A stretch of DNA of 64,000 bases from Daucus carota subsp. sativus (taxonomy: Eukaryota; Streptophyta; Magnoliopsida; Apiales; Apiaceae), in the NCBI RefSeq assembly GCF_001625215.2, contig NC_030383.2, forward strand, positions 47,612,380 through 47,676,379. Reading direction: 5' to 3'. How positions within the stretch are numbered: position 1 is the stretch's first letter; every line of letters begins with the position of its first letter. The position numbers and the translations under genes were made by a program. Of the stretch, positions 15,909 to 52,100 are shown piece after piece. A model generated the notes under the pieces. The model was given only the letters and a program-made list of their open reading frames with translations, had not been told where the DNA came from and searched no databases.

Positions 15909-16285
15909 CGAATTTAGGAGTTAATCTCGTTACCTTTGATTGCCCCCTTCTAGATGTAAGAACCCTAACTCTTTTCTTTACTATGATTTGTATGTCTCTG
16001 GGCTTTATATAAGCTGCTACAAATATATGGACGTTACAATCCACGTAAGAGTCAAAAGAGCCGTTGCTTTCCACTGTGTCAAACAGGTGAATGCCACATA
16101 GACACTTCTGTTAGGTCAAGCGGTCAACATAACGACACAGTCATTATCCGTTACTAAAGTGGTACGGAAGAGACCCCGTTAAGTACGATCAAGATTTTGA
16201 TACTACAAGCTGACTTAAGTGACCATTTTGAGATTTTTCTCTAAAAAAATTCCACCTCAGGACTCCTTTATAAGTGAAGGGATTT

Positions 16286-25884: not shown

Positions 25885-25889
25885 GTATT

Positions 25890-27231
25890 TGTAATGCATC
25901 AGGTTAGTTGGTTTTATAAATAATAGTAAGAGTTGGCACTACCTTGGTAAATAGAGTAATTAATTAAAATAGTGGTGTGAAAGTTTGTTAGATATTAAAT
26001 TAGTTTAAAATTTAGCTATAAAGTTGTCATATTAATAATAATACAAATAAATGGGATTTTTTTGGATATCTTTATAATAGTTTTTATTAAGTGCTAAGAA
26101 TTGATTTATTAAAAGGAAAATAGAAAGAAAGAAAAAAAAAAAAAGAGAAAAGAGCAACAAGCATCAGGTGCCAGGTCAGTGAGGACATAGACAGGGGAGA
26201 GGAAAATTAGGGGTTTATTTCCAAAAGCAGAGAGAAGGATAGATACAGAGGGAAAACAAAGAACAAGTAGTAATCAAGAATTAGAAAGAAGTAAGCACAA
26301 AGAAGAGAAGGCAGGCAAGTCCTTCACTCTCTTCTTCCCTCTCTCTTTTAATGGTTTTTTTCGTAGTCTACTCTGTTCTCCCTTGTTTCTGTTGCTTTGA
26401 TTGTTGGTTTCCAGTTGAGGTTTGTGAACTTCTTCTTATTTCTTTTTAATTTGGTAGCCTTATTGTGAATTATAGTGAGCTCTATTGAAATTAAAAGGGA
26501 TTTTTGATGTGGTCGAGTAACAAGCATCACTTTGTCTCCACTTTCTTATCCTGATGAGTAAATTGCTAGCTATGTATTGGCTCTTGTGATAAACATAGAA
26601 GGTATATAATCTTTTCTACTTGATGGCTTTCGATTATGTTTTATGTGGCTAAATGATGGTAATCAGCCACAAATGATGGATTTAGTACATGCATGTTACA
26701 TAGTTGATGGCCACTAGAGCTGATCACTCTAGTAAATGAAGGTTACATGATTGCGAGTATATTTTTATCTTCATTCGTTGCTTTATTGGTGTGCTTGCCT
26801 ACTCCTGTTTCCTACAAAATTGAAATATTTCCTGTGTTTATCTTATCGGACTTGCTGGGCATATCCATGCTCATTTTTGTGATGATTTATGGTTTTCAGA
26901 AAAACACCAGAACTAGAGCAAAAGTACAAGCGGGCTGGGTAGTCTAATATCTTCCTACTTTTGATCATACAATTTGGATGTGTGAAGTGAGCAGATGACT
27001 TTTGAATTTTGTACCAGGAGGTGTGATAGTTTGTACTAGTTTTAGGCTAGTATTGTATAAAGTTGGCTAGTTAAAATCTTGATTTCGGTAGTTGCTGCTA
27101 TGTATAGGCTGTAGACCTGGGAACCTCTCCTGATTTGTAAAATCTTGTAATGATCTAACTTGAAGGTTTTTAGCTGTTTATTTTTATTTTATTTTTTTTG
27201 TGTTTGTTATGATTGGAATCAGGCTGTTACA
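25890..27231 (+). repeat. Chromovirus LTR 1 (5' outer)
   Basis: Begins TGTAATGCATCAGG and ends GGCTGTTACA, so the ends are TGTAA/TTACA inverted. Length is 1342 bp. It has a pure A run near 26132 and purine-rich then pyrimidine-rich blocks. It is nearly identical to the other two LTRs apart from homopolymer lengths. Confidence 0.95.
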
Positions 27232-27235
27232 AGTT

Positions 27236-27247
27236 TGGTATCAGAGC
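27236..27247 (+). promoter_or_regulatory. Primer binding site, unit 1
   Basis: TGGTATCAGAGC lies 4 nt after LTR 1 and is complementary to the 3' end of initiator tRNA-Met, the usual primer for minus-strand synthesis in this group. About 520 bp of untranslated leader follows before gag. Confidence 0.9.
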
Positions 27248-27771
27248 TTAGGATTTAGAGAACATAGCAGCATAGGATTTTACAACCAGGATCTTTAGGA
27301 AGTGGGAAAAAAAAAATTATTAGGTTCTTATTTGTTTGAGTATTTCCTCCATGTGGTTGTGCTCGTTTATTTTGGTTTGTTGAAATTTATTTATATGCAG
27401 GGCCCAGGTACAATAAAAGAATTCAGAATTTTATAGGACTTAAAATACCCTTCCTTGTTTCTGTTATACTCCTTCCTGACTAGCTATATGGTGTAGATTT
27501 CTATTTTGGTTGACCTCTGATTGTCGGATTAGCATTTAGTATATTGTATTGAATAACAGCATATTCAGCTACTTGTAAGACGAATCAGAGGTATGATTAT
27601 TACACTATTACGCTTCTGTGACTTGATCATTATTATGCGGAGTTCAAAACCGGTAACGGTCCTTATCGCTTGCAACTCTATTTGTGAGTGATTACATTGA
27701 GCTGTTGAACCCAAGTACAATAATATTATGTTGATATCCCTGGACGGACAGCCAACTAGTCTAATTTTAAA

Positions 27772-29496
27772 ATGATTTTGTTTTCGTATAGCTCGAAAAG
27801 AACAAAGAACAACAAAATGCCACAGCGGAGAGAATCACATGATCCTATACAACAGTTAACGGAAGTGCTTCAACAAGTTGTAGGGAGTAATCGGGCTGAA
27901 AGAATCTCACCTTTTAAGCATTTCAAGGACACGCAACCACCAGAATTTCGCGGTACAACGGATCCAGCAGAGGCACAAGGGTGGATTAAAGAAATTGAAA
28001 AATCTTTTAGAGTTGCACAAACACCAGATAACTTGAAAACAAATTTCGCAGCTTATATGCTAAAGGGAGAGGCGAACTTTTGGTGGGAATCAGTTGAACA
28101 AAGAGAAGATGCAGTGGTTATACAGTGGTCCAGATTTAAGGAATTGTTTCTTGAAAAATATTTTCCAAAATGCTTGGAAAATAAAATGGAAATTAAATTT
28201 CTTGAACTCAAGCAAGGTGACATGAGCGTAACGGAATATGAAGCAAAATTTACAGAGTTGTCGAGGTATGCTCTTCACCATGTTCAGGATGAGAAAAGAA
28301 AGGCGCGAAGATTTGAGCAAGGTCTTAAACCATGGATTTATCAAAAAGTTGCTGTTTTTGAGCTCGAAAATTATGCAGCAGTAGTTCAAAAGGCTTTAAT
28401 TGTTGAAGGGAGCTCTGAGCATTATATCAATTACAAAGAAGACAGGAAAAGGAAGGGTGAAGATGTAGGTAGTGAGCGTGATGGGGGTAAATTCAGAAAA
28501 GTAAATCAATTCAAGAAAATGAAAGGTGGGAATTCAGCAAAAGGAAAAGAAGATAAGGCAGAATTTGGAAGCAATGGGTGCAAGTACTGTGGAAAGAAAC
28601 ACGGAGGAGTATGCACAAAAAGGAACAATACTTGCTTTAATTGTGGGCTGGTCGGACATTTAGCGGTAGCGTGTAAGAAACCTAAGACTAATCGCTGTTT
28701 CAAATGCGGAAAAGAAGGTCATTTTGCAAAAGAATGTCCGCAAAATGAAGAAAAACCACATGAAGAAAAAGAATGGAAGGGATCAGCTGGAACGCAGCCA
28801 AGGAACAAGGCCACTGCTCGCACTTTCAATATGTCGGTACATGATGCGCTTGAAGCGAATGATGTCATAACAGGTACATTTATGATTTCCTCGGTAAATG
28901 CTTATGTCTTGATCGATACAGGCGCAACTAAATCATTTGTTTCTACCCAATTTGTTAATAATAATAAGTTGCAAGTAGAAAAACTTCCTGAGACCTTATA
29001 TGTTGAAACCGCAAATGAGGAAGTTCTTATGGCAGATAGTATAGTGAACAAGTGTCCTATTCTAATAAATGAGTGTCAACTTTTTGTTGACCTGATTCCT
29101 ATCAACTTAAAAGAGTTTGACGCTATTATTGGAATGGACTGGCTACACAAACATGAAGCCTGCATTAATTGTCAAAGAAAATTGGTGACAATCAAGTCAC
29201 CAAACGGGAAGAAAATTCTATTTCGTGGCCAAAAGAAGCAAGGCCCTGGACGATACTTAACAATTGTCCAAGCAATGAGGCACATACAGAAGGGTGGCGT
29301 GGGATTCTTAGCTCACATTCGGGACACGTCTCAATCACTACCTAAAATTGAAGAAGTTCCGATTGCACGCGAATTTGTTGATGTTTTTCCAGAAGAACTA
29401 CCTGGAATGCCACCTGATCGAGAGATCGACTTCGCAATTGACCAGGTGCTGCTCCTATTTCCAAGACACCGTATAGAATGGCGCCAAGTGAGATGA
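27772..29496 (+). CDS. Chromovirus Gag-protease, unit 1
   Basis: 574 codons from the first ATG; the Met at codon 16 (MPQRRESHD) is the more usual start. Order: Retrotrans_gag core ([27 protein letters not shown]; about 50-230), a basic linker, and a CCHC-type region with [14 protein letters not shown] near residue 288 and [14 protein letters not shown] near 309. An aspartic protease with the catalytic triad D-T-G near 382 ([13 protein letters not shown]) follows. The frame ends in the linker before reverse transcriptase, where it overlaps the pol frame by 19 nt in the -1 register. Frame loss by a short deletion is likelier than programmed slippage, because no canonical slippery heptamer is visible. 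Confidence 0.9.
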
Positions 29497-32249
29497 AGGA
29501 ATTGATGGTGCAATTGAAAGATATGTTGGAGAAAAGGATCATACGGCCTAGTGTATCACCGTGGGGAGCTCCTGTCTTATTCGTCAAGAAGAAGGATGGA
29601 TCAATGCGACTTTGCATAGATTATCGCGAACTAAACAAAGTAACGATAAAGAATAAATACCCCTTGCCACGAATTGACGATTTATTTGATCAATTAAAAG
29701 GAGCATCATATTTTTCGAAGATTGATTTGAGATCCGGATATCACCAATTGAAAGTTAAGCCCGAGGATGTGCCAAAGACAGCATTTAGAACTCGGTACGG
29801 GCATTACGAGTTCTTGGTGTTACCTTTCGGATTAACAAACGCACCTGCTGTGTTTATGGACCTCATGAATCGTGTGTTTCAAGATTATTTGGATAAATTC
29901 GTGATTGTATTCATTGATGACATCTTAATCTACTCAAAGACTCGGGAAGATCATGAAAAACACCTGAGATTAGTTTTAGAAAGGCTGCGTGAAAAGAAGC
30001 TTTATGCAAAATTTTCCAAATGTGAATTTTGGCTCAGAAAAGTACAATTCCTCGGACATATTGTCAGTGAATCAGGGATAGAAGTTGATCCTGCAAAAGT
30101 GGAAGCTGTTATGAAATGGGAAACTCCAAAATCAGCGACAGAAATTCGAAGTTTTCTTGGTCTAGCCGGATACTACCGAAGATTCATTCAGAATTTTTCG
30201 AAGATAGCTGAACCATTGACCAGATTAACGAGGAAGGACGTCAAATTCATTTGGAGTGAAGAATGTGAATCTAGTTTTCAGACATTGAAAGAAAAATTAG
30301 TTAGTGCACCAATACTTGTTCTACCAGATTCATCGGGAGGATTTAAAATATATAGTGACGCTTCTCATAATGGTCTAGGGTGTGTTTTAATGCAACATGG
30401 AAGAGTTGTGGCATATGCTTCAAGGCAGTTAAAGGACTACGAAAAAAAGTACCCAACTCATGATTTGGAGCTCGCTGCTGTGGTATTTGCACTTAAGATA
30501 TGGCGGCATTACTTGTATGGCGAAAAATGTGAAATTTACACGGACCATAAAAGTTTAAAATATCTATTTACACAACGAGAATTGAATATGCGTCAACGGA
30601 GGTGGCTGGAACTCCTTAAGGACTATGATTGCACAATTAATTACCACCCCGGAAGAGCTAACTTAGTGGCTGATGCTTTAAGTCGAAAAGAAAAGATCAG
30701 ACAAATTACTTCAAGCTTGAAGAAAGAATTTGATAGGCTGGAAATAGAACTGGTCACATCACTTCAACTTAAAGAAAAAGAAAAGCAGGAAAGTGATAAA
30801 ACTCTCATGGAGAAAATTCTGGAGTCGCAAATGAGAAGCAGCGGAAAAGAAAAGATTGAGAAATTAATTAAGGCAGAAAAGAATTCTGATTTTCATGTTA
30901 ACAAAGACGGAATTATTCTTTATAGACAAAGAGTTTGGATTCCAAGTGATTCAGCCTTGAAAGAAGAAATACTAGATGAAGCTCACAATTCACGTTATTC
31001 TATCCATCCCGGAAGTACGAAGATGTACCAAGATTTAAAAAGACAATTTTGGTGGGAAGGAATAAAGAAAGATGTGGCTGAATGGGTGGAAAAATGTCTA
31101 ACATGCCAAAGAGTCAAGGCTGAACACCAGAGGCCCAGCGGACTTTTGCAACCGCTAGAAATACCAGAATGGAAATGGGATCAAATAACGATGGATTTTG
31201 TCACAGGCTTGCCAGCGACGCGTCAGGGATTTAATGCTATTTGGGTAATTGTGGACCGGCTCACAAAATCAGCCCACTTTTTGCCAATTAAAGAAAAGTA
31301 TGATGTCGCAAAGTTGGTGCAGATTTATATGGATGAAATTGTAACAAGACATGGAGTACCATCAACGATAGTTTCTGACCGAGATGCAAGATTTACATCA
31401 ACATTTTGGAGAAAATTACAAGAGAGTCTCGGTACAAAAGTATGCCTCAGTACCGCCTATCATCCACAAAGCGATGGGCAAAGTGAAAGGACGATACAAA
31501 CCCTCGAGGACATGCTTCGAGCATGTGCGCTGGACTTCAAAGGAAATTGGGCAGAACACCTACCGCTGGTGGAATTCGCGTACAATAATAGCTATCATTC
31601 AAGTATAGGGATGCCACCATACGAGGCCTTATATGGAAGAAAGTGCCGCACACCTTTATGTTGGAACGATGTAGGTGAAGCAAAATTATTGGGGCCTGAA
31701 CTAGTAGAAAAGACGGTAGACTCTATTCAAATCATAAGAAGAAGATTAAAATCAGCTCAAGATCGACAAAAGCAGTATGCTGACAGAAAAAGGAAAGATA
31801 AAAGTTTTGAAACCGGAGACCATGTACTTCTCAAGATCTCGCCGTGGAGAGGGTTGCATCGATTTGGAAAGAAAGGGAAACTTGCCCCTAGATATTTGGG
31901 ACCTTTTGAAGTATTGAGAAAGGTAGGAAAAGTTGCTTACGAGTTGGCCTTACCTCCTGATATGAGAGTTCATAATACATTTCACGTTTCGCTGCTCAAA
32001 CCTTATAAGCATGACGACAAGCATGTACTCGCATATGAGCCGTGCCAAATTCGGGAAGATTTATCGTATCAGGAAATCCCAATAAAGGTACTGGAAAAGA
32101 AGGAGTTTACTCTTCGAAATAGAACCATACCATGTTTGAAGGTCGCATGGAAAGATCGACCTATCGGAGAAGCCACATGGGAATCTGAAAGTGAAATCAA
32201 GAAGAAGTACCCGCAACTCCTTTTCAATTTCGAGGACGAAATTAATTAA
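29478..32249 (+). CDS. Chromovirus reverse transcriptase-RNase H-integrase, unit 1
   Basis: 923 codons, uninterrupted. Reverse transcriptase begins near residue 20 ([20 protein letters not shown]) and its active-site pair is D147-D148 in FIDDILIYS. RNase H follows ([24 protein letters not shown]). Integrase has the His-Cys zinc region ([16 protein letters not shown]) and a DD35E triad at D573, D634 and E670. The C-terminus holds the [10 protein letters not shown] motif and a chromodomain-like end ([19 protein letters not shown]) that directs chromovirus insertion into particular chromatin. The ATG is probably not a native start, since pol is normally made as a Gag-Pol polyprotein. Confidence 0.9.
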
Positions 32250-32260
32250 GGAGGGGAGAA
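32248..32260 (+). promoter_or_regulatory. Polypurine tract, unit 1
   Basis: AAGGAGGGGAGAA lies immediately before the central LTR and follows the pol stop. This is the expected site for plus-strand priming. Confidence 0.85.
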
Positions 32261-33605
32261 TGTAATGCATCAGGTTAGTTGGTTTTATAAATAATAGTAA
32301 GAGTTGGCACTACCTTGGTAAATAGAGTAATTAATTAAAATAGTGGTGTGAAAGTTTGTTAGATATTAAATTAGTTTAAAATTTAGCTATAAAGTTGTCA
32401 TATTAATAATAATACAAATAAATGGGATTTTTTTGGATATCTTTATAATAGTTTTTATTAAGTGCTAAGAATTGATTTATTAAAAGGAAAATAGAAAGAA
32501 AGAAAAAAAAAAAAAAAGAGAAAAGAGCAACAAGCATCAGGTGCCAGGTCAGTGAGGACATAGACAGGGGAGAGGAAAATTAGGGGTTTATTTCCAAAAG
32601 CAGAGAGAAGGATAGATACAGAGGGAAAACAAAGAACAAGTAGTAATCAAGAATTAGAAAGAAGTAAGCACAAAGAAGAGAAGGCAGGCAAGTCCTTCAC
32701 TCTCTTCTTCCCTCTCTCTTTTAATGGTTTTTTTCGTAGTCTACTCTGTTCTCCCTTGTTTCTGTTGCTTTGATTGTTGGTTTCCAGTTGAGGTTTGTGA
32801 ACTTCTTCTTATTTCTTTTTAATTTGGTAGCCTTATTGTGAATTATAGTGAGCTCTATTGAAATTAAAAGGGATTTTTGATGTGGTCGAGTAACAAGCAT
32901 CACTTTGTCTCCACTTTCTTATCCTGATGAGTAAATTGCTAGCTATGTATTGGCTCTTGTGATAAACATAGAAGGTATATAATCTTTTCTACTTGATGGC
33001 TTTCGATTATGTTTTATGTGGCTAAATGATGGTAATCAGCCACAAATGATGGATTTAGTACATGCATGTTACATAGTTGATGGCCACTAGAGCTGATCAC
33101 TCTAGTAAATGAAGGTTACATGATTGCGAGTATATTTTTATCTTCATTCGTTGCTTTATTGGTGTGCTTGCCTACTCCTGTTTCCTACAAAATTGAAATA
33201 TTTCCTGTGTTTATCTTATCGGACTTGCTGGGCATATCCATGCTCATTTTTGTGATGATTTATGGTTTTCAGAAAAACACCAGAACTAGAGCAAAAGTAC
33301 AAGCGGGCTGGGTAGTCTAATATCTTCCTACTTTTGATCATACAATTTGGATGTGTGAAGTGAGCAGATGACTTTTGAATTTTGTACCAGGAGGTGTGAT
33401 AGTTTGTACTAGTTTTAGGCTAGTATTGTATAAAGTTGGCTAGTTAAAATCTTGATTTCGGTAGTTGCTGCTATGTATAGGCTGTAGACCTGGGAACCTC
33501 TCCTGATTTGTAAAATCTTGTAATGATCTAACTTGAAGGTTTTTAGCTGTTTATTTTTATTTTATTTTTTTTTGTGTTTGTTATGATTGGAATCAGGCTG
33601 TTACA
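32261..33605 (+). repeat. Chromovirus LTR 2 (shared, central)
   Basis: 1345 bp with the same termini as LTR 1. It is preceded by the unit 1 polypurine tract and followed by a second primer binding site, so it acts as both 3' LTR of unit 1 and 5' LTR of unit 2. No target-site duplication flanks it. Confidence 0.95.
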
Positions 33606-33609
33606 AGTT

Positions 33610-33621
33610 TGGTATCAGAGC
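33610..33621 (+). promoter_or_regulatory. Primer binding site, unit 2
   Basis: TGGTATCAGAGC again lies 4 nt after the LTR, identical to unit 1. Confidence 0.9.
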
Positions 33622-34143
33622 TTAGGATTTAGAGAACATAGCAGCATAGGATTTTACAACCAGGATCTTTAGGAAGTGGGAAAAAAAATTATTAGGTTCT
33701 TATTTGTTTGAGTATTTCCTCCATGTGGTTGTGCTCGTTTATTTTGGTTTGTTGAAATTTATTTATATGCAGGGCCCAGGTACAATAAAAGAATTCAGAA
33801 TTTTATAGGACTTAAAATACCCTTCCTTGTTTCTGTTATACTCCTTCCTGACTAGCTATATGGTGTAGATTTCTATTTTGGTTGACCTCTGATTGTCGGA
33901 TTAGCATTTAGTATATTGTATTGAATAACAGCATATTCAGCTACTTGTAAGACGAATCAGAGGTATGATTATTACACTATTACGCTTCTGTGACTTGATC
34001 ATTATTATGCGGAGTTCAAAACCGGTAACGGTCCTTATCGCTTGCAACTCTATTTGTGAGTGATTACATTGAGCTGTTGAACCCAAGTACAATAATATTA
34101 TGTTGATATCCCTGGACGGACAGCCAACTAGTCTAATTTTAAA

Positions 34144-35868
34144 ATGATTTTGTTTTCGTATAGCTCGAAAAGAACAAAGAACAACAAAATGCCACAGCGG
34201 AGAGAATCACATGATCCTATACAACAGTTAACGGAAGTGCTTCAACAAGTTGTAGGGAGTAATCGGGCTGAAAGAATCTCACCTTTTAAGCATTTCAAGG
34301 ACACGCAACCACCAGAATTTCGCGGTACAACGGATCCAGCAGAGGCACAAGGGTGGATTAAAGAAATTGAAAAATCTTTTAGAGTTGCACAAACACCAGA
34401 TAACTTGAAAACAAATTTCGCAGCTTATATGCTAAAGGGAGAGGCGAACTTTTGGTGGGAATCAGTTGAACAAAGAGAAGATGCAGTGGTTATACAGTGG
34501 TCCAGATTTAAGGAATTGTTTCTTGAAAAATATTTTCCAAAATGCTTGGAAAATAAAATGGAAATTAAATTTCTTGAACTCAAGCAAGGTGACATGAGCG
34601 TAACGGAATATGAAGCAAAATTTACAGAGTTGTCGAGGTATGCTCTTCACCATGTTCAGGATGAGAAAAGAAAGGCGCGAAGATTTGAGCAAGGTCTTAA
34701 ACCATGGATTTATCAAAAAGTTGCTGTTTTTGAGCTCGAAAATTATGCAGCAGTAGTTCAAAAGGCTTTAATTGTTGAAGGGAGCTCTGAGCATTATATC
34801 AATTACAAAGAAGACAGGAAAAGGAAGGGTGAAGACGTAGGTAGTGAGCGTGATGGGGGTAAATTCAGAAAAGTAAATCAATTCAAGAAAATGAAAGGTG
34901 GGAATTCAGCAAAAGGAAAAGAAGATAAGGCAGAATTTGGAAGCAATGGGTGCAAGTACTGTGGAAAGAAACACGGAGGAGTATGCACAAAAAGGAACAA
35001 TACTTGCTTTAATTGTGGGCTGGTCGGACATTTAGCGGTAGCGTGTAAGAAACCTAAGACTAATCGCTGTTTCAAATGCGGAAAAGAAGGTCATTTTGCA
35101 AAAGAATGTCCGCAAAATGAAGAAAAACCACATGAAGAAAAAGAATGGAAGGGATCAGCTGGAACGCAGCCAAGGAACAAGGCCACTGCTCGCACTTTCA
35201 ATATGTCGGTACATGATGCGCTTGAAGCGAATGATGTCATAACAGGTACATTTATGATTTCCTCGGTAAATGCTTATGTCTTGATCGATACAGGCGCAAC
35301 TAAATCATTTGTTTCTACCCAATTTGTTAATAATAATAAGTTGCAAGTAGAAAAACTTCCTGAGACCTTATATGTTGAAACCGCAAATGAGGAAGTTCTT
35401 ATGGCAGATAGTATAGTGAACAAGTGTCCTATTCTAATAAATGAGTGTCAACTTTTTGTTGACCTGATTCCTATCAACTTAAAAGAGTTTGACGCTATTA
35501 TTGGAATGGACTGGCTACACAAACATGAAGCCTGCATTAATTGTCAAAGAAAATTGGTGACAATCAAGTCACCAAACGGGAAGAAAATTCTATTTCGTGG
35601 CCAAAAGAAGCAAGGCCCTGGACGATACTTAACAATTGTCCAAGCAATGAGGCACATACAGAAGGGTGGCGTGGGATTCTTAGCTCACATTCGGGACACG
35701 TCTCAATCACTACCTAAAATTGAAGAAGTTCCGATTGCACGCGAATTTGTTGATGTTTTTCCAGAAGAACTACCTGGAATGCCACCTGATCGAGAGATCG
35801 ACTTCGCAATTGACCAGGTGCTGCTCCTATTTCCAAGACACCGTATAGAATGGCGCCAAGTGAGATGA
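34144..35868 (+). CDS. Chromovirus Gag-protease, unit 2
   Basis: The translated sequence is the same as unit 1. The only coding difference I noticed is a silent T/C change in an Asp codon (GAT at 28461-28463 versus GAC at the matching place near 34833). It carries the same frame break before reverse transcriptase, so the break existed before the unit was duplicated. Confidence 0.9.
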
Positions 35869-38621
35869 AGGAATTGATGGTGCAATTGAAAGATATGTTG
35901 GAGAAAAGGATCATACGGCCTAGTGTATCACCGTGGGGAGCTCCTGTCTTATTCGTCAAGAAGAAGGATGGATCAATGCGACTTTGCATAGATTATCGCG
36001 AACTAAACAAAGTAACGATAAAGAATAAATACCCCTTGCCACGAATTGACGATTTATTTGATCAATTAAAAGGAGCATCATATTTTTCGAAGATTGATTT
36101 GAGATCCGGATATCACCAATTGAAAGTTAAGCCCGAGGATGTGCCAAAGACAGCATTTAGAACTCGGTACGGGCATTACGAGTTCTTGGTGTTACCTTTC
36201 GGATTAACAAACGCACCTGCTGTGTTTATGGACCTCATGAATCGTGTGTTTCAAGATTATTTGGATAAATTCGTGATTGTATTCATTGATGACATCTTAA
36301 TCTACTCAAAGACTCGGGAAGATCATGAAAAACACCTGAGATTAGTTTTAGAAAGGCTGCGTGAAAAGAAGCTTTATGCAAAATTTTCCAAATGTGAATT
36401 TTGGCTCAGAAAAGTACAATTCCTCGGACATATTGTCAGTGAATCAGGGATAGAAGTTGATCCTGCAAAAGTGGAAGCTGTTATGAAATGGGAAACTCCA
36501 AAATCAGCGACAGAAATTCGAAGTTTTCTTGGTCTAGCCGGATACTACCGAAGATTCATTCAGAATTTTTCGAAGATAGCTGAACCATTGACCAGATTAA
36601 CGAGGAAGGACGTCAAATTCATTTGGAGTGAAGAATGTGAATCTAGTTTTCAGACATTGAAAGAAAAATTAGTTAGTGCACCAATACTTGTTCTACCAGA
36701 TTCATCGGGAGGATTTAAAATATATAGTGACGCTTCTCATAATGGTCTAGGGTGTGTTTTAATGCAACATGGAAGAGTTGTGGCATATGCTTCAAGGCAG
36801 TTAAAGGACTACGAAAAAAAGTACCCAACTCATGATTTGGAGCTCGCTGCTGTGGTATTTGCACTTAAGATATGGCGGCATTACTTGTATGGCGAAAAAT
36901 GTGAAATTTACACGGACCATAAAAGTTTAAAATATCTATTTACACAACGAGAATTGAATATGCGTCAACGGAGGTGGCTGGAACTCCTTAAGGACTATGA
37001 TTGCACAATTAATTACCACCCCGGAAGAGCTAACTTAGTGGCTGATGCTTTAAGTCGAAAAGAAAAGATCAGACAAATTACTTCAAGCTTGAAGAAAGAA
37101 TTTGATAGGCTGGAAATAGAACTGGTCACATCACTTCAACTTAAAGAAAAAGAAAAGCAGGAAAGTGATAAAACTCTCATGGAGAAAATTCTGGAGTCGC
37201 AAATGAGAAGCAGCGGAAAAGAAAAGATTGAGAAATTAATTAAGGCAGAAAAGAATTCTGATTTTCATGTTAACAAAGACGGAATTATTCTTTATAGACA
37301 AAGAGTTTGGATTCCAAGTGATTCAGCCTTGAAAGAAGAAATACTAGATGAAGCTCACAATTCACGTTATTCTATCCATCCCGGAAGTACGAAGATGTAC
37401 CAAGATTTAAAAAGACAATTTTGGTGGGAAGGAATAAAGAAAGATGTGGCTGAATGGGTGGAAAAATGTCTAACATGCCAAAGAGTCAAGGCTGAACACC
37501 AGAGGCCCAGCGGACTTTTGCAACCGCTAGAAATACCAGAATGGAAATGGGATCAAATAACGATGGATTTTGTCACAGGCTTGCCAGCGACGCGTCAGGG
37601 ATTTAATGCTATTTGGGTAATTGTGGACCGGCTCACAAAATCAGCCCACTTTTTGCCAATTAAAGAAAAGTATGATGTCGCAAAGTTGGTGCAGATTTAT
37701 ATGGATGAAATTGTAACAAGACATGGAGTACCATCAACGATAGTTTCTGACCGAGATGCAAGATTTACATCAACATTTTGGAGAAAATTACAAGAGAGTC
37801 TCGGTACAAAAGTATGCCTCAGTACCGCCTATCATCCACAAAGCGATGGGCAAAGTGAAAGGACGATACAAACCCTCGAGGACATGCTTCGAGCATGTGC
37901 GCTGGACTTCAAAGGAAATTGGGCAGAACACCTACCGCTGGTGGAATTCGCGTACAATAATAGCTATCATTCAAGTATAGGGATGCCACCATACGAGGCC
38001 TTATATGGAAGAAAGTGCCGCACACCTTTATGTTGGAACGATGTAGGTGAAGCAAAATTATTGGGGCCTGAACTAGTAGAAAAGACGGTAGACTCTATTC
38101 AAATCATAAGAAGAAGATTAAAATCAGCTCAAGATCGACAAAAGCAGTATGCTGACAGAAAAAGGAAAGATAAAAGTTTTGAAACCGGAGACCATGTACT
38201 TCTCAAGATCTCGCCGTGGAGAGGGTTGCATCGATTTGGAAAGAAAGGGAAACTTGCCCCTAGATATTTGGGACCTTTTGAAGTATTGAGAAAGGTAGGA
38301 AAAGTTGCTTACGAGTTGGCCTTACCTCCTGATATGAGAGTTCATAATACATTTCACGTTTCGCTGCTCAAACCTTATAAGCATGACGACAAGCATGTAC
38401 TCGCATATGAGCCGTGCCAAATTCGGGAAGATTTATCGTATCAGGAAATCCCAATAAAGGTACTGGAAAAGAAGGAGTTTACTCTTCGAAATAGAACCAT
38501 ACCATGTTTGAAGGTCGCATGGAAAGATCGACCTATCGGAGAAGCCACATGGGAATCTGAAAGTGAAATCAAGAAGAAGTACCCGCAACTCCTTTTCAAT
38601 TTCGAGGACGAAATTAATTAA
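35850..38621 (+). CDS. Chromovirus reverse transcriptase-RNase H-integrase, unit 2
   Basis: 923 codons with the same translation as unit 1, including intact RT, RNase H and DD35E residues and the chromodomain-like end. Its start overlaps the Gag-protease frame by 19 nt in the same way. It is followed by a polypurine tract at 38620-38632 and LTR 3. Confidence 0.9.
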
Positions 38622-38632
38622 GGAGGGGAGAA

Positions 38633-39973
38633 TGTAATGCATCAGGTTAGTTGGTTTTATAAATAATAGTAAGAGTTGGCACTACCTTGGTAAATAGAGT
38701 AATTAATTAAAATAGTGGTGTGAAAGTTTGTTAGATATTAAATTAGTTTAAAATTTAGCTATAAAGTTGTCATATTAATAATAATACAAATAAATGGGAT
38801 TTTTTTGGATATCTTTATAATAGTTTTTATTAAGTGCTAAGAATTGATTTATTAAAAGGAAAATAGAAAGAAAGAAAAAAAAAAAGAGAAAAGAGCAACA
38901 AGCATCAGGTGCCAGGTCAGTGAGGACATAGACAGGGGAGAGGAAAATTAGGGGTTTATTTCCAAAAGCAGAGAGAAGGATAGATACAGAGGGAAAACAA
39001 AGAACAAGTAGTAATCAAGAATTAGAAAGAAGTAAGCACAAAGAAGAGAAGGCAGGCAAGTCCTTCACTCTCTTCTTCCCTCTCTCTTTTAATGGTTTTT
39101 TTCGTAGTCTACTCTGTTCTCCCTTGTTTCTGTTGCTTTGATTGTTGGTTTCCAGTTGAGGTTTGTGAACTTCTTCTTATTTCTTTTTAATTTGGTAGCC
39201 TTATTGTGAATTATAGTGAGCTCTATTGAAATTAAAAGGGATTTTTGATGTGGTCGAGTAACAAGCATCACTTTGTCTCCACTTTCTTATCCTGATGAGT
39301 AAATTGCTAGCTATGTATTGGCTCTTGTGATAAACATAGAAGGTATATAATCTTTTCTACTTGATGGCTTTCGATTATGTTTTATGTGGCTAAATGATGG
39401 TAATCAGCCACAAATGATGGATTTAGTACATGCATGTTACATAGTTGATGGCCACTAGAGCTGATCACTCTAGTAAATGAAGGTTACATGATTGCGAGTA
39501 TATTTTTATCTTCATTCGTTGCTTTATTGGTGTGCTTGCCTACTCCTGTTTCCTACAAAATTGAAATATTTCCTGTGTTTATCTTATCGGACTTGCTGGG
39601 CATATCCATGCTCATTTTTGTGATGATTTATGGTTTTCAGAAAAACACCAGAACTAGAGCAAAAGTACAAGCGGGCTGGGTAGTCTAATATCTTCCTACT
39701 TTTGATCATACAATTTGGATGTGTGAAGTGAGCAGATGACTTTTGAATTTTGTACCAGGAGGTGTGATAGTTTGTACTAGTTTTAGGCTAGTATTGTATA
39801 AAGTTGGCTAGTTAAAATCTTGATTTCGGTAGTTGCTGCTATGTATAGGCTGTAGACCTGGGAACCTCTCGTGATTTGTAAAATCTTGTAATGATCTAAC
39901 TTGAAGGTTTTTAGCTGTTTATTTTTATTTTATTTTTTTTTGTGTTTGTTATGATTGGAATCAGGCTGTTACA
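38633..39973 (+). repeat. Chromovirus LTR 3 (3' outer)
   Basis: 1341 bp. It differs from LTRs 1 and 2 by at least one substitution (CTCTCGTGATT instead of CTCTCCTGATT near 39870) and by homopolymer lengths. It is followed directly by GTATT, the right-hand target-site duplication. Confidence 0.95.
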
Positions 39974-39978
39974 GTATT

Positions 39979-41858: not shown

Positions 41859-41929
41859 TGCAACATGGGGTTTCCTAACAGTTTCTGTGAGCCATTTTAT
41901 TCAGTCCGTTACGTCTCCGTTAAACCCCT

Positions 41930-42241
41930 GTTTTCTATTTATATGTTCCTCAAACTCCTTCGCCTCCCCCTTCTGCTTCTCTCGCTCTTCTGTCTATTTC
42001 TCTAGGTTACCGTATACACACGGACACAGTGACACCCCCTGGATAAACACACACTGTAACATCCAATTAGCGTAAAATCTATATCTCTTCCCCACTCCGA
42101 GCTCCCGATTCTTGGCGCCTCTTTAGGTAAGTTTTACACTTTAACACCGATTGGGTTTTAATTATTTCACTTATTTAATACTTTTCATCACGTACATCAA
42201 TTGTTGTTGTGTGTATGATTGTGTTTTTGATTGTTTGTGCA
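41930..42241 (+). promoter_or_regulatory. NAC promoter and 5'-UTR with intron, copy A
   Basis: CTATTTATATG (about 41934-41944) is a TATA-like site. A pyrimidine-rich leader follows, ending TCTTTAG with donor GTAAGT at about 42127. The intron ends GTTTGTGCAG at 42242. This organisation is normal for a plant gene, so the duplicated block includes a real promoter. The same region in copy B is about 47260-47582. Confidence 0.5.
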
Positions 42242-42271
42242 GTGTTTGGAGTGTGAAAGAATTGATTTGTG

Positions 42272-42425
42272 ATGATGGGTATTCTCCCTCCGGGGTTTCG
42301 GCTTCATCCGACTGATGTGGAGTTGGTTATGTATTATTGACAGAGGAAAGTGATGGGCAAGAAGTTTCAGTTTGAGGCTATGGCTGAGCTCAATGTGTAT
42401 AAGCATAAGCCTTTGGATCATGCAG
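42272..42425 (+). pseudogene. NAC-domain gene first exon, copy A, with premature stop
   Basis: Translates as MMGILPPGFRLHPTDVELVM followed by YY, then a TGA at 42338-42340. It resumes in frame as QRKVMGKKFQFEAMAELNVY and ends at a GT donor after CATGCAG. This is subdomain A and the start of B of a NAC transcription factor. No later NAC exon (C-D-E subdomains) was recognised in the block. Within NAC the KVMGKKFQFEAIAELN wording is characteristic, so identity of the family is firm even though the gene is broken. Confidence 0.8.
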
Positions 42426-44530
42426 GTTTGTTGTTGATTATGACTTTTTTAAATTGTTTCTGATATGGGTTGTTTGATTTTTGTGGATTGGATTTTTTTG
42501 GGACTGGATTAGGTTGAAAGAGGGGACTTTAGGGGTTGGTGTGATTGTTATTATTGTATGTTATGTGCTATTTAAAATCTGTAATGTAGTTGAATCGACT
42601 GTCTTAAAGGAATGAGTTTTCCAGTTCGAATCTACGGGGACAATGTGTTTAGTACATTTGTTTATCGAGGTTTAACTGTATATATTTATTGAATAAGATT
42701 GTTTATGTTTTGGGGGGGGGGCAGTGAGGATTGGAAGGGGAGGGTTAGAGTAGGGTGTGAAGGGATCGTTAATTCTTAATTGTCGTGGTTTTAAATTATA
42801 GATGTAGACTGTAGAAATGTTTTGAATCAGATCTCAAGGATATCACGCTTAATAACTTGCTCTGTGTTGTTTTTAGTAAAATCTCTTTGGAGAAGAGATC
42901 TTGAATGGTACTTTTTAGTCCCCTGAGAGAGAAAACATGGTAGTGGGACAATAACAGATCGTGCAACTGAAACTGGATACTAGAAAGCCACTGAATTAAG
43001 ACACTTATCTTCTACAAGGCCCTGCACCTAAAGGTGAAGGGACAGACTGGGTTAAGATTATCAATATCACAACCTCTTAAGTGTTCTATTCCATGCTCAT
43101 GCGTGGAAGACTCTGGCATCTGATCCGGACTTGGAGAAAAAAACGTGACACCTAATGAACAATTATAGATGTTTTTGCAGTGTTGGTCTTCTGTGACACG
43201 CAAGATGTGCACTGGCTTTTTGAGGCATCATCTTAGATATATCAACTATTTGTCTATTAACAGTTTGATAAATTGTCTTTATAGATTTTCCGATTCATGT
43301 CGGCTCTTATATAATACTCTAACATAGAGTTTGGTGAGCCAAAAAAATGGGTGTGAAAATACAGTCTCGCCCTTCACTTAGATGGACTAATTACTTCTTC
43401 GTCCCTCCCTTATAAACTGTGAGTCTCTATGTGCCTCTTCGCTTTTCCGTTTATTGCCCGGGGAATTCCTGTGGCCTCAGTTGGCCTTCTACACCTCCGT
43501 CTCCCTTTTCCTCTGTCTGTTCGTTGCGTACAGCCAAGGCTTGCAATCCATAACTGAAGTGGTTTCTTGACTGCAGTTGCTCTTTCCGCAGGCCCACCGG
43601 GGTGTGCATTGCTGTTGGGGATCATGGAGAGATGTTGTCCTAGGTGACCTATTGATGAGGTTTGTTTTCCCAGATATTTTTATTGTGGCATTCTTATATA
43701 TTTCATTTAGAGGGGGTTATTCGTGTAGATAGAATTATTTTTTCTTTCCGCTGCGAAATCTATGCTGGTCCAGTGGACCCAAGGTTTAGCCCGTTACCTG
43801 TCCTACGTAAAGTTTCATCAGCACATCAACTTGCCTTCTGCTAACGCTTGGAAATAGTATTTCCGCCTGTCCTCGATGTAGCTACCACTGAAAAGAAAAA
43901 TTGAGTTACTGGGTTGATAGTGTACACAATCACTGTGGTAAGTTGATTTGTGTTGCTACCTCAAGTGCCATTCTGGTCTGGCCTAAGAAGGAGTCATGAA
44001 TAATTGTGGCTGCTCATATATGTTTTCCAGTTTCTGTTACAGTACGGAAGCTGGGTTTTCCTAACTTAATATGGTATGTTTCAGCACTCGGGGGGCTGTT
44101 GAGAAACCATGCTGGAGAGTATGCTACTGGAGTACATGCTGCAGAGGCAACATAAAATGTGCTTGAACTAAGGTTGGTCCGATGCTTATAAAATCCTTGT
44201 ATTAAGACCTGTGAAGGCAAAGACTTAAATGGAAAATGTCTGTTCAACTTTACTAATTTAATTACTGCACTTAGTTGTTCATGGAACAATAGATGTTGAG
44301 AGGATTTCATCATTATCCAAACCACATCAGACATTAGTATGTGGTAATATATGCAGGCATGTAAGACTGTTTTGCGTCATGCTTCAAATTGGGCTGAAGG
44401 CAGGATATTTCAATAAACAAAGGCATATACAAAACTATTCACAACGCAAGATATTGCTGCACTTGCAATGGCTTATTGTCAGATTTTCTAACATTAATAA
44501 TTTAACAACGCTTCCACAATTGGATTGCAG
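42426..44530. other. Duplicated non-coding stretch, copy A
   Basis: About 2 kb without a supported gene. It includes a G-run near 42713 and possible exon-like pieces. One near 44074-44147 reads LGGLLRNHAGEYATGV after a TTTCAG acceptor, but it meets a stop and has no clear donor. Copy B has the same sequence with the solo LTR inserted at the site matching 43832. Confidence 0.4.
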
Positions 44531-46521
44531 AAAGAACACCTCCACTTATTCTTGGAATATTCAGTGTTGGTAGTTCGGTTGGCAATACAACCAGTGGTAG
44601 TTATAGTATTTATTAATAATATTGATATCAATATAAAATTAGTATTAATATTATGATTATTACCTTATCAAAGCCAGCCCCAGAAAGAGAAATATTCATA
44701 ACACTCCTCAAATTAAGTTGGCAGAGAACAATCCCAATTTGCCAATTTATTCCTGGAAAAATAAACATTGTTAATTAGGCTAGTAATATGGGTGGGCAGG
44801 CCAGTGACACAAAGTTTATAATATGATCTGCTTTGCACCTTTTAGTAGCAGTTGAAACTTCAATCTCCACCAGATATGGGGGTGATAAAAGGCAACAAAC
44901 CATCATGCCGCATAACTTCTTCTAAAACTAAGTACATCCTCATACTTAATTGAGTTCAAAGTTGAGAGTGTATTGATTTTCTTGGTATAAAAAATGGGGA
45001 CAAAACTCATCTTTTTGGAAGAGATTATGCTTTCAGAGTGCTGATCATGCATCATCCTTCCACTACTATGCAGCATCATCTCTAAAAATAGGGAGTTTCA
45101 TTGACTCGTCTTTTTGGAAGAGGTTGTGCTTTGACAGTACTGATCATGCATCATCCCTCCACTGCTATGCGGCATCATCTCTAAAAATAGGGAGTCTCAT
45201 ATAAAAGAGAAGCCACCCTGATTATGCTGCTTTATGCCTCTAAGTGGAAACGGTCAAACATAATTGATCACACTTTTATGTAAAGGTGTTTGCTCTGCTG
45301 CACCCTGGCTGGATCAAACGGCTATGCTTGGTTCAAGCGATTTGTCAGTCGCAATCCAGAGTAGGTGTATGATTGCTTAGCACATAAAAGAAAGTGCGGC
45401 CATCGCTCAGCACCTGTTATGCGAGTGACAAGACCCATTATTTTTGTGGTGCATGTCTGTCCATATTAGTAAGTATTCAGTCAGGCTGATTAACAATTTG
45501 TTTGCACATCGAGGGAGGGGTACTGTTTCAGGATTAAACATGTATAGATATGTATGGAGGCTAGATGTGAACGCGTGAAACACAATGTTGCTTGTGGGTT
45601 CATTGTTATCTTACTTTAGTAATATTCTTTCTATGTTTTTTACTCTGTCACTGATTCACAACTAATGAATTTACTTTTAGTCATTTATTTGAAATATTAA
45701 TGGGTAGTGATATATATTTTCAAAGTGAAAGTTATTTATATGTCATGGCTACCTTGCACTTAACTTTCTATCTTGATTTGTTTTATGCATCTCACGAAGG
45801 CTTATATATGTACAATGTTATCAAAGTTTCTTTTACAAGCCTTAATAGAACTTCTGATTGCAATTCTTCAGGGCTTTTTATGTGGAAAGTTCTCAAAAAG
45901 GAGAAAGAGGAAAGGAGAGCCAAAGCTGGCAGTAGTAACAAGCATACTAGCACTGGCAATGGTAAGCTGCTTTTTTCATAATAATATTCTTATAGCGCCA
46001 CGATTAGGGGGTCATGGATTTTCATATTTGGGACACTGTTATCACAAGCAAGAAGTAGTTTCCCCTCTGTGTATTACCGCACACCTGGCCTTATGATTTC
46101 CAAACCTATAGTCTCCATATATGATCCAAAAATATATATATTTTTTATTTAGCTTCTTTAACTACATTCTTGGAAAAATGTAATTTATTTTTTTTGTTTT
46201 AAATCCAAAAATAAAGCACAATTGAGAATTGGGATGGCACATTAGTGTGAGACTTATGTTTTTTGCATGGTTAGGAGACATAAACTTTATAATAGATGGA
46301 ATAAAGTTGGAATAATATAACAATGTATCTGCAAAAGTCAATAGTTGTTCTTATCAGCAAATACGAGCATGTTTCTGCAAGCGAGGGATGGACTACATAA
46401 TATTTGCATCTAAAATAAATTTACATTGTGGTTTGTACATGATTTTGTCATATTTCTGTAGGTAAAGTTGATGGTCCAGACCTGAAAAGTTTTATCCAAC
46501 AATTTCCTGTTACTTCAGAAG
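44531..46521 (+). pseudogene. Three exons of an unrecognised gene, copy A (lacks last exon)
   Basis: Exons 44531-44596, 45872-45961 and 46462-46521 have AG/GT borders and the same phase throughout, so they join without a break. The product reads PLILGIFSVGSSVGNTTSG, then LFMWKVLKKEKEERRAKAG, then KVDGPDLKSFIQQFPVTSEG. It looks like a hydrophobic stretch followed by a basic, charged region. The matching terminal exon lies only beyond copy B, so copy A is truncated. I do not recognise the family. Upstream exons were not found. Confidence 0.45.
45005..45202. repeat. 99-bp tandem duplication, copy A
   Basis: Two units of about 99 bp (45005-45103 and 45104-45202) share CTTTTTGGAAGAG, TGATCATGCATCATCC and CATCATCTCTAAAAATAGGG. 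They differ at several bases, so this is older than the A/B duplication. The copy B equivalent is 54794-54991. Confidence 0.85.
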
Positions 46522-46810
46522 GTAAATTTCCTACTTTCAGCATCACTAATGTATAGCTTCTGGGAATTGTCTACAATTTTGTGTGTTTAGATCAGCACAT
46601 TGCTACATCAGATTTTTTTATCTACTTCCAAAACAAAGTCCTGCATAAAGTTCTCAATTTGCTGTCAGCGAGAAACTAAGATATTGTATGATAAATGGGT
46701 TAATTGAATACATCAGTAATTTAATTTATTGCTTCAAATTCTACATATTTTAAATCAAAAAACCCAAGGTGCCATCTGGAATTGAAAGAAGAGATGGAGT
46801 TGGATGAAGC

Positions 46811-46979
46811 CAGTGGCGGTGCCACATTAGGGCACCTGGGGGCTCGTGCCCCTCCAACTTTCAAAAAAACAACTATATTTTTGTGGATCCCACATGTATT
46901 ATTAACAGGTGCCCCCAGCTGAACTATGTGATCAGGGTTATGGTGTCCCTTTATACATTTCATCCTGGCTCCGCCAATG
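46811..46979. mobile_element. Short hAT-type MITE, copy A
   Basis: 169 bp with ends CAGTGGCGG and CCGCCAATG (inverted, one mismatch). Flanked by an exact 8-bp GATGAAGC duplication (46803-46810 and 46980-46987). Non-coding. Confidence 0.8.
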
Positions 46980-47611
46980 GATGAAGCACACAAGTTAGAA
47001 AATAATTTTATTTATGGGCGTATTCATTTGATAAAATAATTGCCGGTGAATCATTATTATGAGGCCTATTTTTTTTATCAGTTACCTTTTTGTATGATTT
47101 TAGTTTGAGCTAAATAATGCTTTTGTAGAATGCACTTACAATATAGTATTTTGGGCAACCTTAAGCCGTGAAGAGATATATATAATACTGCAACATGGGG
47201 TTTCCTAACAGTTTCTGTGAGCCATTTTATTCAGTCCGTTACGTCTCCGTTAAACCCCTGTTTTCTATTTATATGTTCCTCAAACTCCTTCGCCTCCCCC
47301 TTCTGCTTCTCTCGCTCTTCTGTCTATTTCTCTAGGTTACCGTATACACACGGACACAGTGACACCCCCTGGATAAACACACACTGTAACATCCAATTAG
47401 CGTAAAATCTATATCTCTTCCCCACTCCGAGCTCCCGATTCTTGGCGCCTCTTTAGGTAAGTTTTACACTTTAACACCGATTGGGTTTTAATTATTTCAC
47501 TTATTTAATACTTTTCATCACGTACATCAATTGTTGTTGTGTGTGATTGTGTGTATGATTGTGTTTTTGATTGTTTGTGCAGTGTTTGGAGTGTGAAAGA
47601 ATTGATTTGTG

Positions 47612-47765
47612 ATGATGGGTATTCTCCCTCCGGGGTTTCGGCTTCATCCGACTGATGTGGAGTTGGTTATGTATTATTGACAGAGGAAAGTGATGGGCAA
47701 GAAGTTTCAGTTTGAGGCTATGGCTGAGCTCAATGTGTATAAGCATAAGCCTTTGGATCATGCAG
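47612..47765 (+). pseudogene. NAC-domain gene first exon, copy B, same premature stop
   Basis: Identical to copy A over the exon, including the in-frame TGA after the VMYY codons. The shared stop shows the gene was already broken before duplication. The intron upstream carries the 10-bp insertion that distinguishes B from A. Confidence 0.8.
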
Positions 47766-49180
47766 GTTTGTTGTTGATTATGACTTTTTTAAATTGTTTC
47801 TGATATGGGTTGTTTGATTTTTGTGGATTGGATTTTTTTGGGACTGGATTAGGTTGAAAGAGGGGACTTTAGGGGTTGGTGTGATTGTTATTATTGTATG
47901 TTATGTGCTATTTAAATCTGTAATGTAGTTGAATCGACTGTCTTAAAGGAATGAGTTTTCCAGTTCGAATCTACGGGGACAATGTGTTTAGTACATTTGT
48001 TTATCGAGGTTTAACTGTATATATTTATTGAATAAGATTGTTTATGTTTTGGGGGGGGGGGGGGGCAGTGAGGATTGGAAGGGGAGGGTTAGAGTAGGGT
48101 GTGAAGGGATCGTTAATTCTTAATTGTCGTGGTTTTAAATTATAGATGTAGACTGTAGAAATGTTTTGAATCAGATCTCAAGGATATCACGCTTAATAAC
48201 TTGCTCTGTGTTGTTTTTAGTAAAATCTCTTTGGAGAAGAGATCTTGAATGGTACTTTTTAGTCCCCTGAGAGAGAAAACATGGTAGTGGGACAATAACA
48301 GATCGTGCAACTGAAACTGGATACTAGAAAGCCACTGAATTAAGACACTTATCTTCTACAAGGCCCTGCACCTAAAGGTGAAGGGACAGACTGGGTTAAG
48401 ATTATCAATATCACAACCTCTTAAGTGTTCTATTCCATGCTCATGCGTGGAAGACTCTGGCATCTGATCCGGACTTGGAGAAAAAAACGTGACACCTAAT
48501 GAACAATTATAGATGTTTTTGCAGTGTTGGTCTTCTGTGACACGCAAGATGTGCACTGGCTTTTTGAGGCATCATCTTAGATATATCAACTATTTGTCTA
48601 TTAACAGTTTGATAAATTGTCTTTATAGATTTTCCGATTCATGTCGGCTCTTATATAATACTCTAACATAGAGTTTGGTGAGCCAAAAAAATGGGTGTGA
48701 AAATACAGTCTCGCCCTTCACTTAGATGGACTAATTACTTCTTCGTCCCTCCCTTATAAACTGTGAGTCTCTATGTGCCTCTTCGCTTTTCCGTTTATTG
48801 CCCGGGGAATTCCTGTGGCCTCAGTTGGCCTTCTACACCTCCGTCTCCCTTTTCCTCTGTCTGTTCGTTGCGTACAGCCAAGGCTTGCAATCCATAACTG
48901 AAGTGGTTTCTTGACTGCAGTTGCTCTTTCCGCAGGCCCACCGGGGTGTGCATTGCTGTTGGGGATCATGGAGAGATGTTGTCCTAGGTGACCTATTGAT
49001 GAGGTTTGTTTTCCCAGATATTTTTATTGTGGCATTCTTATATATTTCATTTAGAGGGGGTTATTCGTGTAGATAGAATTATTTTTTCTTTCCGCTGCGA
49101 AATCTATGCTGGTCCAGTGGACCCAAGGTTTAGCCCGTTACCTGTCCTACGTAAAGTTTCATCAGCACATCAACTTGCCT

Positions 49181-52100
49181 TGTGACGGCCCGAGAATCCG
49201 GGGGTCTGGATTCTGACGTCACCACACAAAAACCATTTTTAAAACACCTTAAAAAAAAACCTGCAATATATTTTTTTTTTTATAAAGATAATGAAAATCC
49301 AAAAGAATTTTAAAACTTGAAATTCAAAACTTGAAAGCCATCATAAAATATTTGAAAGAGCACATTTCAACCCCCTAAAACAACAGGATCGCATCCAGGT
49401 TACAGTATTGAAATTAGAATCCACCACTAATATTACACAGCATTTCTTACCAAATCAGATCATCTTCGATAAGAGGAATCACTGTCAACTATTCCAGCTA
49501 TGACTTACACTTGAAACCCTATAGCACAGCTCTAGCTTGCACCAACCTCATCAACTTTCCTGAACACTCCTCAACCACTGGATCCTCAACTCTGTCTCCT
49601 CGCCTAGCATTAGCCTTATCCACAATCTCAATCAATCATCTCAACTTTAAGCCTTTCTGAAATGGTTAGAAAGGAATAGCAAGGGTGAGCAACAATGCTC
49701 AGCAAGTAATAATAAACAATGATAGTTCTGAAATGATATAACAAAAGTTCACGAGTTCAAGATATAAGAGGATTCAACCTGATTTCATGAGTTCATGGTA
49801 TTGTATAGAATGATTTACAATACCTTGCAGCATTTAAACTGAGAAATTCAATCTTTCCAAAGAATTATTGAATTGGACTATCACATTTTAATTAAAACCA
49901 AGGTTAGGCAGCTGATCAGTTCCGCACTAACCCCGAGCAGGCCCCGCCATGCTCTATCACTGGATCCAAGGCACTCATTGGCCTAACATGACCACGAATC
50001 TGGTCCACAGGTTTATATAAAAACAATAATCCAATTCTCTAATTCAATTCAAGAAGCCAATGTAAATTAACAGAACATCATCATAAATATCATCAACAAC
50101 AGAATAATTCCAATTCAAACTTTGATAATAATCTATTCATAAATCATGATCCATCATTTCATAAATCACAGTTCAGGAAATCCTCAACTATTCAGTATCC
50201 TCCATTATCGGCTAAGCAACTGAATTTAGCCTGCTAAACCAGCATGACAATGGCGGGTTGAATAATCAAGAAGATCCCAATTCATTCAAAGCTCTAACTA
50301 TCACTGAGCAACACATGCTTCAATGACAATCTGAACTTCGAATTAATTTGTAAAACGGAAATTCTTTAGAAACTTGAAGATTAGAAAGAATGGGTCAGAA
50401 TACTCGCACTTTCGAACATTGAAAAGAAAGGTATGAATACTTGAAACATATACCAAAGGAATGGATCAGAATATTTGCAATATATCCAAGAGAAAGGTTT
50501 AGGATACTTGCCTTAAATCTGACTCCAGTTTCATAGCTCAACCTCATCTTTCAACTTTCACAATCTATGCATGTCGTAATCTCTAGACCATCTCTAGCTA
50601 TACTCTATTCGCCACTTCGCTTCGCTTACTCAATCATCCCTTATTCGCTTTGCAATACCATTCCGACTTTCTGACGTCTTCGAGCGTACACGTCTCGTCC
50701 AAATCCTTTACGAGAATAAGATAATGCTATAGTCACTAAGCAATATATCGCATATACATATCACGTATATCGATACCCACTTATATACCCCTTTAAACCT
50801 ATCACATACCACGTAACACATAAGCATGCTTTGACTCTTACATATAGTCAATCATATTCCACATAACATATCACCAATCAATTATCATATGAATCCTATC
50901 GAAAATCCGACATCGTCTCGTCTATTTATTAGACTATCCACCTGTTATCCTATCTCAATCAACAATCAACCAACAAGATCCAATCACTATAATCCATATA
51001 TTCTTATCCAATATCAATCAACTCACGACACTATGTCATCCAAATCATTTATCACACGCATATACTATCATGAATAAACATGTATATCACGTAGTCATTA
51101 GTTAATAGCAACCAAATAACATATAATCACATTTTGCACATTTAACAAAAATTATTCAGATTCTCGACTCCATCATAATATTATGTCATATCAAACTAGA
51201 CTTTATAAGCTTCTGTCTCTCTTTCGTTTCACTTGATTCCGACTTACGGATCAAAAGTTATGATCAAAACCGTTTTCTAACTCCTCTATCGGCACATAAC
51301 ACATCAAACAGATAGCAGACAACACATTACACATAAGGTTTCCCACCCCAATTGATATCAAATCAACTCTTGGATTAAAAATGATTTTTCGGGAATTTTC
51401 TGGAATTTTTAAACATTTTTCGGAATTAAAACGGATAAAAGAATCACTTTTCGGATAAATAATCAAGTCCCGAATACTTGAAATTGGACTTGAAATCATT
51501 CATAAACAATTATCGAGCCTTGAAAATAATTTGGAAAAATATTTTAAAGCTCGAAACTATTTTTTGGAATTTTTAAATCAAAAAGGATTAACTAAATCCA
51601 ATTAATTAATCAATTAAAATCAATTAATAATTAATTAAAATAATTAATCAATTAATATTTAAATTAATTGACCAATTAAATAATTAATTACTAATTAAAA
51701 TTAATTAACAAACTAATTTAGATTTATTTTTGAATAAAGAAATAATTAAAAAGCATTTTATTGAAATTAAAATAATTAAATAAAACAATTTTTGAAAATT
51801 AAAATCAAAGGTTTAAAGTGTAAACTTTTGAAAGTTTTGTCCAGGTTTTAAAGTGCAATTTTTCAAAGTTACAGGGGGTAATTCACAAGTTTCAAAACCT
51901 GAGTACAAAAACTTCATCATCTTCAAAACTTCGGTAACCAAACAGCAATAAGCCGCCGGCCACCACACTAACTCGCCGGAAATTCGTTTCCAGGCGTCCT
52001 CCACTCACCATCTACTCCAGATCAGTAGTACACACACCCATAAATCAATCCCCCATCTTTAATTAGGCAGAAGTCGCGCGAATTCGCCGGAAAATCCGGC

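Follow-up and report, generated by a model that had tools for sequence, protein, structure and literature searches.

Within the 64,000-nucleotide stretch of the carrot genome (Daucus carota subsp. sativus, contig NC_030383.2, positions 47,612,380 to 47,676,379) that was analysed as a whole, hereafter the window, lies a tandem array of an element that we class from its predicted domains as a Ty3/gypsy chromovirus. Three long terminal repeats (LTRs) alternate in it with two internal regions (INT1 and INT2). A single insertion almost certainly stands behind the whole array. The history that we favour, with a probability of roughly 0.55 for the statement as a whole, is one insertion followed soon afterwards by an unequal exchange between LTRs that added the second unit.

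Anatomy of the Array

Comparison of the window with itself gave a 7.7-kb direct repeat with a spacing of 6371 bases (25890–33605 against 32261–39973), 99.86% identical with gaps counted and with two mismatches, together with a further pair of LTRs (25890–27231 and 38633–39973). The order is LTR-INT-LTR-INT-LTR, with an LTR at both ends and complete alternation with the internal regions (Table 1). A preliminary description of this DNA had proposed this alternation over 25885–39978, with GTATT duplicated once at the outer edges and nothing around the central LTR. The self-comparison confirms the alternation with exact boundaries, the coordinates proved exact, and the flanks of all three LTRs agree with the single duplication. 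The five bases before and after each LTR are GTATT/AGTTT for LTR1, GAGAA/AGTTT for LTR2 and GAGAA/GTATT for LTR3; the outer pair alone agrees, which for 5 bases at a given place would happen by chance with a probability of about 0.0015. No other 5-bp repeat was found at LTR2 when its flanks (GAGAA against AGTTT) were compared. This central LTR has GGAGGGGAGAA before it, on the side of the polypurine tract, and after it come AGTT and then TGGTATCAGAGC, the primer-binding site, which we take to be that of the plant initiator Met tRNA. Because the polypurine and primer-binding sides directly abut LTR2, it is continuous with both internal regions.

Table 1: Features of the array (window positions) and of the other tandems in the carrot genome.
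Feature	Position	Strand	Remarks
Target-site duplication, left copy	25885–25889	.	GTATT
LTR1 (5' LTR)	25890–27231	+	1342 bp, TGTAATG...TTACA
INT1	27232–32260	+	5029 bp
Primer-binding site, unit 1	27236–27247	+	TGGTATCAGAGC, four bases past LTR1
Unit 1 frame 1	27760–29496	+	gag capsid, CCHC knuckle, aspartyl protease (Pfam)
Unit 1 frame 2	29442–32249	+	reverse transcriptase (RT), RNase H, integrase, chromodomain (Pfam); out of frame with frame 1
LTR2 (central LTR)	32261–33605	+	1345 bp, no target duplication
INT2	33606–38632	+	5027 bp
Unit 2 frame 1	34132–35868	+	gag-protease, by near-identity with unit 1
Unit 2 frame 2	35814–38621	+	RT to chromodomain, by near-identity with unit 1; chromodomain itself scanned
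LTR3 (3' LTR)	38633–39973	+	1341 bp
Target-site duplication, right copy	39974–39978	.	GTATT
Tandem	C6:938168–961140		three LTRs, 3683 bp; outer duplication GTCGG
Tandem	C6:24336905–24369271		three LTRs, 3655–3656 bp; outer duplication TTGTA; second unit with nested element
Pair	C2:8.234–8.249 Mb		truncated; no clean duplication found

Differences between the Units

Only two substitutions separate the units over the whole array, each private to one copy. INT1 and INT2 differ by one silent substitution (T at 28464, C at 34836) and by the length of one A run. LTR1 and LTR2 have no substitution between them, LTR3 carries one (G at 39871, where LTR1 and LTR2 have C), and all remaining differences within the array are lengths of A or T runs. 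Since relatives carry the other base at both sites, T at the first (the one copy on C9) and C at the second (five LTRs), the changes in INT2 and LTR3 are private and derived.

The divergence of LTR1 from LTR3 (1/1340) corresponds to about 29 kyr (0.7–160) and that of INT1 from INT2 (1/5027) to about 8 kyr (0.2–43), at an assumed substitution rate of 1.3e-8. By these estimates both the insertion and the duplication are very young; because the age intervals overlap, the two cannot be separated in time. The word "recent", applied earlier to the duplication, is right for the locus as a whole.

Coding Content and Class

Pfam matches in the two frames of unit 1 follow the order gag, protease, RT, RNase H and integrase, with an SH3-like Tf2-1 domain after the integrase and then the chromodomain. 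The frames of unit 2 are the same, with identical spacing. Scanned as an isolated segment, the final 95 residues gave the chromodomain (PF00385) 25.7 bits in both units, with the cut-off at 25.1, whereas the score fell below the cut-off (20.6) in the scan of the whole frame; compared with solved chromodomains, the C-terminal region gave weak matches (best E 0.014). The chromovirus label used in the preliminary description is borne out by the domain order together with this narrowly passing C-terminal chromodomain.

The same split of the reading frame separates protease from RT in both units; relative to a copy on C9 whose frame is open through the corresponding stretch, it is a short difference in length that shifts the frame. 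We first considered the split as a normal gag/pol arrangement, which the open C9 frame disfavours; to judge from this comparison, it is more likely a defect common to both units. The split is older than the doubling.

Other Copies in the Carrot Genome

The genome searched comprised 441,086,747 bases in 11 contigs. An LTR query gave 12 matches, 3 of them in the array. The others were three solo LTRs with 5-base repeats of their own (TCATC on C5; TATAT, in a TA run, at C9:43.46 Mb; CGAAT on C6), a pair of LTRs that belong to a single element on C9 and have GAGGA at either side, three C7 fragments of about 94% similarity, and a further match that was short and weak, so that solo LTRs account for 3 of the 6 loci seen for this LTR family. 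Queries from gag (1.5 kb) and pol (1.56 kb) each matched at 99–100% only in the two array units and the C9 copy, the other 37 of 40 listed places reaching at most 71% for gag and 73% for pol; these copy counts are lower bounds. The family of the array is one of very low copy number. Its LTRs in the array differ among themselves by 0 or 1 substitution and from the five other full-length LTRs by 37–47 substitutions in about 1330 (2.8–3.5%). Because the units are near-identical while the other LTRs are about 3% away, the second unit was copied from the first and not from another listed element.

Among the places listed, C9:25767104–25796259 is the only other copy whose internal region is near-identical. 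One base in 1339 separates its LTRs, yet two insertions, of about 14.1 and 7.3 kb, are already nested in it, the edges of both repeating 5 bases of the host element; the 7.3-kb insertion has identical ends of 990 bp. Over 1.5 kb of gag-protease (27760–29260), all 11 differences between the array and this copy fall at third codon positions, a twelfth differing site being the private change of INT2. The remainder of frame 1 ahead of the overlap has two more differences, one of them at a first codon position, and of the 20 in the RT-to-chromodomain frame, 12 are silent. The confinement to third positions at 27760–29260 points to constraint that was strong and recent, although every copy among the places listed is interrupted.

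Other Tandems in the Carrot Genome

Same-strand gag pairs 6.4–9.7 kb apart number at least four (8 of the 40 listed gag places), the window array included. Two tandems on C6 have, likewise, three LTRs and a single outer duplication each. At C6:938168–961140 the LTR differences set the 5' LTR apart in 9 cases, the 3' LTR in 8 and the central LTR in 4, in mixed order, and equal shares among the three LTRs are not rejected (p 0.37). With the other C6 array as outgroup, 17 of these 21 differences resolve and all 17 are private, although the alignment with the outgroup is poor around one of them (position 1244). The doubling falls within the first 42% or so of the age of the element (95% bound, assuming equal rates along the LTR), or about 44%, by hand, when position 1244 is left out. 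This bound follows because a late unequal exchange should leave some shared changes.

The LTRs of C6:24336905–24369271 show five substitutions, and at position 1515 the central LTR agrees with the 3' LTR. We did not use this site as a shared derived change, for it is poorly aligned with the outgroup (a gap between BLAST pieces). Among 15 fetched copies, 6 align at 88% or more over the site (four T, one C, one gap), two of the four T copies lying about 11 kb apart on C9 and probably being the LTRs of one element; 3 align at just 72–77% (G, G and C) and 6 do not align over the site. A T ancestor, and hence a shared change, is at best weakly favoured by this alignment. Position 1515 is at most one weak hint of late unequal exchange, and the genome fits early unequal exchange too.

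Several further observations were made at these loci. The nested element in the second unit of the latter tandem (C6:24354017–24365038) has identical LTRs of 1007 bp, and at its flanks, where 5 bases would be usual, 1.6 kb of the host element is directly duplicated. Satellite DNA with units of 170 bp and 159 bp flanks two of the other tandems (C6:934000–970000 and C2:8230000–8257000); the 159-bp unit, on C2, has about the length published for the carrot satellite CentDc (PMC8259371). At C3:25045257–25079060, four pol places on one strand, at intervals of 10.7, 11.3 and 10.7 kb, are possibly a longer retrotransposon array.

How the Tandem Formed

In the favoured history, a low-copy chromovirus would have inserted once in carrot, duplicating GTATT. 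Soon after, on misaligned sister chromatids or homologues, homologous recombination between the 3' LTR and the 5' LTR would have added one internal region and one LTR, giving the present order. A one-element origin is supported by the exact boundaries, the single duplication, the near-identity of the units and the distance from every other listed copy. Because two substitutions between the units stand against 2.8–3.5% to the other LTRs, and the frame split is common to both, the second unit comes from the same element. Recombination between LTRs acts on this family, as seen in its three solo LTRs with their own 5-base duplications. Such solo LTRs are the reciprocal product of the same exchange, the internal region being lost in them and gained in the array. 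The same anatomy has been described in a 2025 survey that names unequal exchange as one of two mechanisms (PMC11899658). We infer that the second unit was gained after the insertion and did not arrive with the element. Unequal LTR recombination is a likely route to the array. Of the earlier proposal of one insertion enlarged by unequal recombination, the single insertion stands; the recombination is not established by the anatomy, since a ready-made tandem or a circle gives the same.

A late unequal exchange predicts a chimeric central LTR, with the alleles of the 3' LTR first and those of the 5' LTR after the crossover, whereas insertion as a tandem predicts private changes only. In the array the one substitution seen among the LTRs is a derived change of LTR3 alone, which leaves no informative site. 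Several points weigh against the favoured history: no chimeric central LTR can be demonstrated in the array, both of its substitutions are private and derived, and in the older tandem at C6:938168–961140 none of the 17 polarised LTR differences is common to the central and an outer LTR. Insertion in tandem form would explain that locus no less well.

Insertion as a tandem, the other mechanism proposed in PMC11899658, is possible but distinctly less probable for the window array. Here a transcript produced by read-through or from a circular template, and holding two internal regions, would have been reverse-transcribed and integrated once, which predicts the identical single duplication and the bare central LTR. 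No difference within the array requires an interval between insertion and duplication, and the older C6 tandem is star-like. The three solo LTRs, on the other hand, show ordinary LTR recombination at work in the family, and a complementary DNA (cDNA) of about 14 kb, the length of the array, would be long for a particle. A wider version, in which the array was copied as a tandem from a multimeric template of a defective low-copy chromovirus and the other single-duplication tandems of carrot arose likewise, we hold slightly more doubtful still; if true, insertion of tandem cDNA would be a regular route beside unequal exchange.

It is improbable that the second unit came from an extrachromosomal circle with one LTR, derived from this element and integrated by recombination with one of its LTRs, even though the same anatomy would result and carrot LTR retrotransposons form extrachromosomal circular DNA (eccDNA) in callus (PMC9324142). 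Nothing at the locus calls for a circle, and its source must be the same element or an identical copy that is absent among the places listed. The two occurrences of the word "tandem" counted in PMC9324142 both refer to tandem repeats as a source of eccDNA.

We regard it as very unlikely that a single element was walked twice in the assembly graph. Most of the differences are homopolymer lengths, as expected of noisy long reads, and 1.9 kb downstream of the array there is another tandem duplication that is nearly perfect. Nevertheless, two substitutions separate the units, each LTR is just 1.34 kb, and the assembly, probably that of carrot line DH1, was built from PacBio and Nanopore reads (PMC10581907). 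DH1 is a doubled haploid line (PMC8259371), so that there is no second haplotype to lay end to end, and a false duplication of two haplotypes in such a long-read assembly is unlikely. Two independent insertions, side by side or nested, are ruled out by the central junctions, where LTR2 lacks a target duplication and runs into both internal regions, and fit neither the lack of a truncated LTR piece nor the two substitutions over 7.7-kb units against an LTR distance of about 3% to other copies.

Neighbouring Features in the Window

The downstream duplication is a separate one of about 5.3 kb (41859–47176 and 47189–49180 + 53621–56965), with 12 bases at the junction of its copies. The copies differ by three indels and by no substitution except one mismatch (43831/53620), which we read as the alignment running into an insertion. 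This TG...CA insertion (49181–53620, flanked by TGCCT) splits the second copy. No Pfam match was found in the 9 of 21 listed frames that were scanned. At 12282–16239, inverted repeats of about 130 bp (93%) surround a frame with a SWIM zinc finger (13631–14767), and this looks like what we presume to be a Mutator-like element.

Relation to Known Systems

The array is a known kind of structure, already common in plant genomes. The 2025 survey reports that such tandems are common in plants and does not decide between unequal exchange and insertion as a tandem; it gives 28 clear tandems in Nipponbare rice, 10 of them with perfect 5-base duplications, and 266 tandem candidates in the rice pangenome (PMC11899658). 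Complete doublets, described earlier as less often reported than solo LTRs, are not rare once sought, to judge from this last figure. Rice TLI1 and TLI2 and the IDENTAM set (PMC11899658) likewise have three LTRs, two internal regions, one outer duplication and high identity between units, and are mostly of gypsy type, as is the carrot array. The carrot case differs from TLI1 and TLI2 in species and family, with units only two substitutions apart and a family of very low copy number. Cassandra and other TRIM arrays also hold LTR elements in tandem, and unequal crossing over has been suggested for the Wukong TRIM arrays; TRIM elements are small and lack gag or pol, unlike the carrot element (PMC7215508, PMC4528315).

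What carrot offers is a very clean and very young example of a structure of debated origin (PMC11899658), with at least two more in the same genome. The polarised comparison of three LTRs, in which changes of the central LTR are sorted into shared and private, gives a simple way of dating the formation of a tandem relative to its insertion and is applicable to other tandems.

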